A stretch of DNA of 64,000 bases from the NCBI GenBank assembly GCA_963678675.1, contig OY783193.1, positions 7,557,394-7,621,393 on the forward strand. Direction: 5' to 3'. The position numbers were made by a program, and so were the translations under genes. The notes below the pieces were generated by a model. The model searched no databases. It worked only from the letters and a program-made list of their open reading frames with translations, and was not told the DNA's origin. This document shows, in pieces, positions 31,001-34,000 of this stretch; position 1 is the first letter of the stretch, and each line of letters opens with the position of its first letter. The DNA comes from Xiphydria camelus. Taxonomy: Eukaryota; Arthropoda; Insecta; Hymenoptera; Xiphydriidae.

Positions 31001-34000
31001 TTACAAATAATGTCTGCTATCATCAACTTAACTATCTCAATTATGTACATCATCTGTTCAGTAAAATGCGATAAATTATTAGAGAACCTTGAATTGATTA
31101 ATATAGTTGATGACATTTGCTTCACATTCTTCATAGGGAAGTTTATTTGCATGCAATGGTGCGAGATGCACATGGAAGAAAAATGAGTAAATCGTTAGGC
31201 AATGTCATAGATCCAATGGACGTGATTAATGGAATCTCATTAGAGGTATATGGCATACAAATTTAAAAACTTAGGTACAGAGATAATATCTCACGATTGG
31301 CGACTCACTAGTTCCTTTTATTCTTTTAAGAATCTTCATAAGCAGTTGCTGGATTCTAACTTAGATCCAAAGGAACTAGAGCGTGCCATTGAAGGACAGA
31401 AACAAGATTATCCACAAGGTATCCCTGAATGTGGCACAGATGCTTTGCGTTTCGCTTTGTGTGCTTATACAAGTCAAGGTCGCGACATCAACCTTGACAT
31501 TCTGCGTGTACAAGGTTATAGATTCTTCTGTAATAAAATTTGGAATGCCACAAAGTTCGCTCTGATGTACCTGGGAGATGGGTATAAATATGACACTTGC
31601 AGTGAGGGGGTAAGAAAAGAATGTTTATAACAAGTTTCCTTAAAAAAAAAAGCATAATTGCCAAGAGTTGAGAAGTTTATTGTCGCGACGAGACAAATGA
31701 CAAAAAACTATCCTTTCCCATGCAATAATTCATGAAGCTATAGCGTCACGAGGGAGCAAACTGTAACGCAAATTCTTTGTCTACTAACAATTAAACTAGA
31801 ACTTGAGTCAATGTTGTTGTACTTCTACGTTCGATACTTTTCAACATTTGGCAAAACTAGAATTCGTGTTATAGTCTTTAAGTATTACATACTACTATCG
31901 TAATAGAATCACGACGGAGATGGAAATGCAAAGAAGATGGTCGGTAATGATAAGTGGTATCTACATACGTTAAATGAAACGTGTGTACAAGATGCTCTAA
32001 ACAACTATTTAGCTGAGTATCCTTATATAGACGGTTACACGCCGTCTCAAGCTGACGTTAAAATCTACGAGGCATTAAACGATCTGCATATTAATTTTAA
32101 ATATCGACCACACCTACATCGTTGGCAAAAGCATATTAAAAGCTTCAATCAACAAGAAAGATCTTCTTTTCGAACCGAACGTGAAGAAATAGTTTCCCAG
32201 TATGAGTTTGCAATAACTAATAGCCACAGTGATAAGTTTAAGGTGGGTTATCCTAAAGTGGCATGCTCAATTAGTTGTTATCCCAGTCCAATAGTGAAAC
32301 ACTTCACCCTTTAACATATTCGAAACAGTAACAAATTACTCCTAAAAATCGTGATAGATATTGTTCGGGTATAATATATAATTTCCACACAAGTACCAAA
32401 TTGTAGAAATCACGATTACTGTGCGAATACTGCACGAACTTTCTAGACGGCCCAATAAATTCTAATGATTCCATATTGTCGCTACAGACTTCGTAATTGC
32501 ATTACTAGTGAAATTAATAAATAAAAAACTCCTTGACATTTTCAAAGGGATAGTTAAGAGTTCATGGATTAACATTTCAGTTAAGTGGACATGAATCGAA
32601 TATGGATTTATGGATGCTTTCAAAAGTGAGTCATGCTATTGAATTATGCGATGAAGGGATATCTCAATATGATCTTCCAACGGCCACAACTGCCTGTTAT
32701 AATCTATGGTTATATGATTTATGCGATGTCTACTTGGTTAGTATACAGTATACCGTATGTATCATGCCAAATTAAACAAGCAGATATACCGACATTGTCG
32801 AAACTTTACCGACGGTCAAGAATTTTATAGTTAGAGTTGGCTTGAGAAGAGTGCGCTGTGTGTGCTGCGTGAGAGCGAAAAGTGTCAAACGTCTGATTTT
32901 CCGATAGCTGTCAATTCGGAAAATCGAAGTATTGAATAATAGACGAAACACTTCGGTCTCTTGAATTAACAGCTATCGGGAAATCAGACGTTTGACACTT
33001 TTCGCTCTCACGCAGCACACACAGCGCACTCTTCTCAAGCCAACTCTAACTATAAAATTCTTGACCGTCGGTAAAGTTTCGACAATGTCGGTATATCTGC
33101 TTGTTTAATTTGGCATGATACATACGGTACTATTTGATGGTTACTAATATAAAAAACACATAAAAATATAAGTGTCATAGTAGCAGCGAAATGTTCATGT
33201 ACAACTCATTACTTAGAACAGTAACTAATGTTCAATTTTTATTTGTATCTAGGAATATTTAAAACCAGTATTTCAATACGGTAGTAATGAAAGTAAATCA
33301 GCAGCACAGAGGATACTATTCAAGACACTTGACATAGGCCTGCGATTGTTGAGTCCTTTCATGCCATTTATTACCGAAGAATTGTATCAACGTCTACCTC
33401 GTACAAAGTTAATCTACCCCAGTATTTGCATCAGCCCATACCCCGAAATTTCTAAAGTAAGAAGTACTTATTTTTCGTCACAATTTTGTGCTTATTCATC
33501 AAATATTACTTCATTAGAGTTTCGTTGAAAATTCGTTCGTGCTCTAATAAATAAAATGACATGTATTATATTTTTAGTACAATTGGAGAAATCTGGAAAT
33601 TGAAGCAGATGTTGAGTTTGCGCAAAAAGTGGTCAAATACATTCGATCAGCTCGAGCGACTTATAATTTACCAAATAAATTGAAGACGGAAGCATTCATT
33701 GTCTGCAGTGATGCAAGTTGCGAACAAAAATTAATTCCATACCATTCTATGATTGGTACACTTGCATATTCCACTATTCATTCAGGAAATGCACCAAATG
33801 GGTGTATTATTTTGACAGTGACTGATAAACTTCTGGTTCACCTACTACTCAAGGTAACGTACATATGGACATATACCTAATATAATTATAGAAAATAATA
33901 TCCATTTGTATCGTTATTTCTTCCAATTTTCTAAGTATTCATAATATCGCATGAGAGATCAATGTTAATACATCCTTTACAACCTTCTTAGGGATTGGTC

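Follow-up and report, generated by a model that had tools for sequence, protein, structure and literature searches.

An eEF1B-beta-like exon, apparently optional, inside insect and crustacean valyl-tRNA synthetase, and a related exon in histidyl-tRNA synthetase

Results

Exon 14 of the ValRS gene encodes an eEF1B-beta-like domain

The cytosolic valyl-tRNA synthetase (ValRS) gene of the hymenopteran Xiphydria camelus, located in a window of 64,000 nucleotides of contig OY783193.1 (positions 7,557,394 to 7,621,393; coordinates below are those of the window), contains an exon encoding a domain like the C-terminal half of glutathione S-transferases (GST-C), and by sequence comparison the closest solved relative of this domain is the N-terminal domain of eEF1B-beta. 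This exon, number 14, lies on the forward strand at 31907..32242, and its 112 codons begin and end in phase 0 and give a stop-free translation (residues 764-875) that includes RWQKHIKSF. Hand assembly gave a whole coding span of 25096..34210 on the same strand, stop included, with 18 coding exons, 1159 residues when exon 14 is counted, and GT-AG borders at 17 of 17 introns. In the spliced protein, Pfam placed the catalytic region (PF00133) at residues 98-726 and the anticodon-binding domain (PF08264) at 884-1035 with exon 14 between them, so the coordinates, residues and placement between catalytic core and anticodon-binding domain given in the original prediction, made from the DNA letters alone, were all correct.

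When exon 14 alone was compared with the PDB by phmmer, human eEF1B-beta (5DQS chain D, residues 15-70) matched the stretch at 31991..32164 of the forward strand with an E-value of 1.1e-9, and AIMP3/EEF1E1 came next at 0.1. A profile built from 23 chosen inserts of ValRS proteins returned eEF1B-beta as the best family (1.7e-19, 72.7 bits), ahead of EEF1E1/AIMP3 (42.6 bits) and a delta-class GST (37.6 bits), and also matched the GST domains of EPRS and AIMP2. The aligned core is identical to human eEF1B-beta (EEF1B2) at 27 of 49 positions and to AIMP3 at 18 of 50. The profile search that had been proposed for residues 764-875 thus upheld the predicted homology above other GST-like domains; it had been worded as "eEF1B beta/delta", of which the beta part stood and the delta part did not, no eEF1B-delta chain being among the matches shown. 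Chance resemblance is ruled out by the profile and the two-way matches, and the score of the delta-class GST against that of eEF1B-beta led us to reject an origin from a plain detoxification GST. Exon 14 stayed below the Pfam cut-offs of PF13410 (GST_C_2; 16.6 vs 24.9 bits) and PF21972 (Arc1p_N_like; 21.2 vs 27).

The N-terminal domain of eEF1B-beta resembles the exon-14 domain in being GST-C-like and in lacking the thioredoxin-like half, and the two share the patterns SY-x-x-GY-x-PSQAD and RW-x-x-HI-x-S. They differ in that the ValRS domain is internal to a synthetase and apparently optional, and in what comes after it, since a Pfam scan of spliced ValRS found no EF1 guanine-exchange domain behind exon 14, where the anticodon-binding domain comes next. 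The second-best family, formed by AIMP3/p18 (EEF1E1) and the GST-like domains of EPRS, AIMP2 and MetRS, likewise consists of GST-type domains that serve assembly in the translation machinery; these possess a thioredoxin-like half. The protein called eEF1B-beta here, EF-1beta (EEF1B2), is termed eEF1B-alpha in other papers, as noted in a passage of one of them (PMC13231004). In the database, an insert-bearing ValRS of Gryllus bimaculatus (P0080) goes under the name "Probable elongation factor 1-beta", which may be due to this domain.

Isoforms and in-frame borders suggest a cassette exon

Exon 13 (31331..31609, forward strand), which encodes the end of the catalytic region and what comes after it, ends in phase 0, and exon 15 (32581..32736, forward strand), which starts the anticodon-binding domain, begins in phase 0; exon 14 could therefore be skipped in frame. 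The structure of the X. camelus gene is known here from genomic DNA, and indirect transcript support comes from other species. We compared 16 pairs of long and short ValRS proteins, relying on the databases' own isoform labels. Fourteen pairs came from single species, and 12 of these were identical but for one block at the junction (Cephus, Athalia, Neodiprion, Nasonia, Venturia, Diachasmimorpha, Chelonus, Prorops, Microplitis mediator, Anabrus, Bacillus rossius, and Ischnura), with additional differences elsewhere in the pairs from Phymastichus and Copidosoma; the remaining two pairs combine different species or sources and are little informative. Near-full-length open reading frames of insert-bearing ValRS were also found on contigs of about 3.5-5.1 kb that look like cDNA. 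From these observations we infer that exon 14 is a cassette exon and that both forms would be spliced in X. camelus too. With 9 pyrimidines over 17 positions, the exon-14 acceptor falls in the range of the other 16 ValRS acceptors (8-15) and shows no clear weakness beside them; splice-site strength thus lends the cassette no independent support.

The insert is shared by insects and crustaceans

To place the insert among species we took the best 120 of 2812 and the best 120 of 250 matches from two protein searches, together 215 different proteins, dropped one model judged chimeric and added the protein of the window. Measured between fixed anchors, the junction is at least 70 residues long in 120 proteins (the window's included) and 20-28 residues long in 95, with none intermediate, which agrees with the expectation of a short loop at this site elsewhere. 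Apart from the window, 119 of 214 aligned homologues have the insert, a proportion that is not a frequency since both queries were insert-bearing. Carriers were defined by junction length and not by a text pattern; a crude pattern for the domain matched 101 of the 120 long-junction sequences and missed 19, including Cephus, which has Val for Pro. One protein with 52 residues (P0151), which looks internally truncated, was a non-carrier at a 60-residue cut and a carrier in the final junction count.

Among the matches listed, all carriers with a species name are insects or crustaceans: Hymenoptera, Orthoptera, Blattodea, Phasmatodea, Thysanoptera, Hemiptera, lice, Odonata, decapods, one copepod, and one barnacle. 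A restriction of the insert to Hymenoptera is thereby rejected. Beyond short isoforms, the named proteins without insert include those of flies, moths, butterflies, spiders, mites, centipedes, a tardigrade, a priapulid, a nematode, tapeworms, molluscs, an annelid, a nemertean, a starfish, and monotremes. These groups were assigned from species names in non-exhaustive lists with many unnamed rows, among which we recognised no Coleoptera, Neuropterida, Branchiopoda, or Collembola. Within carrier groups, the short form alone is listed for the decapod Petrolisthes (P0168), the louse Menopon (P0165) and several Hymenoptera, among others, and we assumed that these are short isoforms or partial models. 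The alignment of many insect ValRS proteins, suggested in the original prediction as a means of dating the insertion, indicates that the insert is old and common to insects and crustaceans, and its simplest history would be a gain in early Pancrustacea followed by loss toward flies and moths. Three crustacean-like ValRS proteins from metagenomes (P0119, P0136, and P0137), presumably of copepod origin, have a PF00458 (WHEP) assignment in addition to the insert, and in P0119 a WHEP-like segment stands ahead of the Lys-rich part of the N-terminal extension.

A predicted helical bundle with a conserved Arg-Trp pair

Structure prediction, which had been proposed for the full protein, gave a confident small helical bundle for exon 14 (AlphaFold2), with no strand of three or more residues and a core at exon residues 15-86 (31949..32164, forward strand); the predicted local distance difference test score (pLDDT) is about 95 over residues 21-90. 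The alignment behind the model set the first 11 exon residues against a core segment, and the first residues of the model are of low confidence and uninformative. Foldseek gave 89 matches, and the 50 printed belong to GSTs or to GST-like domains found in proteins associated with synthetases; for a few of them the GST type is assumed. The prediction is thus of a GST C-terminal helical fold without a thioredoxin-like domain, with fold scores that are modest by themselves. 5DQS was not among the 50 rows shown per structure search (Foldseek, VIA), an absence that excludes nothing. In a full-length model of Cephus ValRS the insert is helical, with block mean pLDDT of 83-93 at 781-850, and its flanks at 761-772 and 857-870 have pLDDT below 50; such low-confidence linkers suggest that the domain is a tethered, independent unit.

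Residue conservation was counted over the 120 long-junction ValRS proteins. In the segment from Gly43 to Asp50 of the exon (32033..32056, forward strand), the Gly is found in 116 of 120 and the Asp in 119 of 120, with one gap. Trp73 is present in all 120 and its neighbour Arg72 in 108, all 12 exceptions falling in the list obtained with the copepod query; the pair (32120..32125, forward strand) lies in a predicted helix at residues 68-78, which by its order in the domain, a matter of comparison and not of computation, we assign provisionally to GST alpha-7. The printed alignments show the same RW pair in eEF1B-beta and AIMP3.

A second eEF1B-beta-like exon interrupts the WHEP domain of HisRS

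When the X. camelus genome was searched with exon 14, the single other match at an E-value of 0.001 or less was at C22:27218603-27218812 (8.1e-5), within an exon of 104 codons, phase 0 at both ends, of the histidyl-tRNA synthetase (HisRS) gene (C22:27218564-27218875, equal to 3565-3876 of locus L003). In the reverse search, the ValRS exon alone was returned besides the HisRS exon itself at an E-value of 1 or less (4.0e-5). The HisRS exon splits the WHEP domain: exon 1 holds its first part, and the rest of WHEP and the core come after the 104-codon exon. Pfam assigned the HisRS family and two WHEP stretches, the better of which aligns residues 9-35 with positions 1-27 of the 53-position profile. 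Homologues of the exon were found in 17 HisRS proteins, 13 from Hymenoptera and four from Lepidoptera.

As with the ValRS exon, the closest solved sequence relative is the N-terminal domain of eEF1B-beta, with which the HisRS exon shares the two patterns given above; a profile of nine HisRS exons matched eEF1B-beta best (4.9e-10), followed by AIMP3 (5.4e-5). Compared with each other, the ValRS and HisRS exon sets matched with a probability of 99.45 and an E-value of 4e-22. In a domain tree of 68 columns the HisRS exons group together (support 87), but the tree does not fix where they fall relative to ValRS inserts, eEF1B-beta and AIMP3, so that one acquisition of the exon cannot be told from two. 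The two own-genome searches scored few candidates (4 and 2) and returned neither the eEF1B-beta nor the AIMP3 gene of this genome, and further such exons may therefore exist.

Its phase and the isoform labels suggest that the HisRS exon may also be a cassette. Behind it, L003 4123-4200 reads MFFLTRVNLTLATQLYRNASTVATPQ and is followed by a GT donor. This stretch resembles an alternative first exon of a mitochondrial HisRS, a form that would be without the domain since the stretch lies after the eEF1B-like exon.

Other features of the window

Intron 15 of the ValRS gene contains a near-perfect inverted repeat at 32751-33129, with arms of 183 bases that are 96% complementary and 13 bases apart, and looks like a foldback mobile element. 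On the reverse strand at 34737-35901, tail to tail with ValRS, lie exons of a class II synthetase, which from their motifs we take to be lysyl-tRNA synthetase.

Discussion

The cassette behaviour of exon 14, its presence in crustaceans and the counterpart in HisRS are additions to what had been noted for this DNA. GST-like domains use two surfaces to build up assemblies of the translation machinery, and in AIMP3 the Arg of the RW pair presumably makes contacts of the type termed interface 2. Since Trp73, Asp50, Gly43 and Arg72 are conserved and the RW pair is common to eEF1B-beta and AIMP3, long ValRS could dock on eEF1B-gamma as eEF1B-beta does, and we propose, at even chances, that exon 14 is an optional docking module that brings ValRS to the elongation factor. 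The GST-C-like domain would stand alone, tethered by flexible linkers to the catalytic region on one side and the anticodon-binding domain on the other, and inclusion or skipping of its exon would yield two forms of the enzyme. The partner of the long form would be eEF1B-gamma with its GST-like domain, or a different GST-like component of the translation machinery; docking, probably via the Arg-Trp helix and much as in eEF1B-beta, would bring the long form near eEF1A. The short form would be the ordinary free enzyme; HisRS would own a copy of the same device. Partner, binding surface and purpose are conjectural. Weighing against docking, Arg72 is invariant in the 23 chosen inserts yet not over the 120 proteins, which lowered our estimate from slightly better than even.

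The main rival is that the domain docks ValRS not on eEF1B but into the multi-tRNA synthetase complex, on the GST-like domains of AIMP3, EPRS, AIMP2 or MetRS. AIMP3 is the second-best relative, and the EPRS and AIMP2 GST domains match too. Through the GST-C surfaces of interface 2, formed by helix alpha-7 and the alpha-4/5 loop, EPRS and AIMP3 are joined, as described in part of one study (PMC6760448), and a passage of a 2015 review lists ValRS without a GST domain in the complex of C. elegans (PMC4394549). However, the eEF1B-beta match is better by 30 bits, and we regard complex docking as unlikely, if worth keeping in view. Somewhat less probable still is that the domain acts on ValRS itself and alters the activity of the long form by lowering, gating or tuning tRNA binding or editing, or by dimerisation. 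Its insertion point just ahead of the anticodon-binding domain would suit such a role, and splicing is described to change the activity of human LARS (PMC8941210), but the low-confidence linkers suggest a tethered, independent unit and the similarity to eEF1B-beta would go unexplained. The same homology that points to docking would also suit a regulatory mimic, the second idea of the original prediction, with long ValRS competing with eEF1B-beta for eEF1B-gamma and lowering nucleotide exchange on eEF1A; nothing separates this from plain docking, but a synthetase isoform would hardly outcompete an abundant exchange factor, and we consider it improbable. That exon 14 is a neutral, functionless leftover or a gene-model artefact, as the variability of the insert outside its core and its lack in the listed flies and moths might suggest, is scarcely credible, and the artefact is rejected, given Trp73 and Asp50, the 119 carriers over insects and crustaceans and the isoform pairs that differ by the insert block alone.

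An eEF1B-gamma docking exon would be a route to eEF1 other than that of vertebrates. Mammalian ValRS is described to join eEF1 via an N-terminal GST domain with a cytosolic-GST fold, spanning 1-213 in the predicted human structure, and the second exchange subunit is its reported interaction partner in rabbit (PMC10452860). Both are GST-type binding domains on ValRS for which the same end, joining eEF1, is proposed; unlike the vertebrate one, the exon-14 domain consists of GST-C alone, sits inside the protein and is apparently optional through splicing. At the N-terminus of the window ValRS, where a Lys-rich extension leads into the core, Pfam found no GST family, and by eye the N-termini of 14 arthropod ValRS proteins have a Lys-rich extension without a GST domain, in keeping with the predicted solution different from that of vertebrates. 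A passage of the 2015 review considers that a GST-like, eEF1-binding ValRS domain could be restricted to deuterostomes, and its reference list includes a 1995 paper on Artemia ValRS with "association with elongation factor 1" in the title (PMC4394549). This association, known to us from the title, would fit docking on eEF1B, and could be accounted for if Artemia carries the insert. Four GST-bearing synthetases were counted in insects in one passage of another review (PMC3359775). By title and abstract, the open-licence papers searched yielded no description of the insert in ValRS or HisRS, which is weak evidence of absence. We know of no report of HisRS joining eEF1.

Human LARS offers a comparison for the splicing, in that its variant LSV3 likewise involves a synthetase exon whose alternative splicing separates roles; in the account of that variant, skipping takes away part of the catalytic domain and abolishes charging (PMC8941210), whereas ValRS would lose by skipping no more than an extra domain and stay intact as an enzyme. 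On a broader and more tentative view, which we hold to be possible but on balance doubtful, insects and crustaceans would have evolved a shared, splice-controlled plug, an optional exon copied from eEF1B-beta and carried by ValRS, HisRS and perhaps more synthetases, the two known ones being of different classes; splicing would set the share of each enzyme held on eEF1B-gamma beside eEF1A and make the hand-over of charged tRNA adjustable, a device of separate origin from the link between ValRS and eEF1 in vertebrates. An internal eEF1B-beta-type domain could make the ValRS-eEF1 link convergent, with another domain at another site, and the second copy in HisRS suggests a reusable docking exon. 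Long and short ValRS, which differ by one exon of one gene, would allow tRNA channelling to be tested cleanly in a natural setting.
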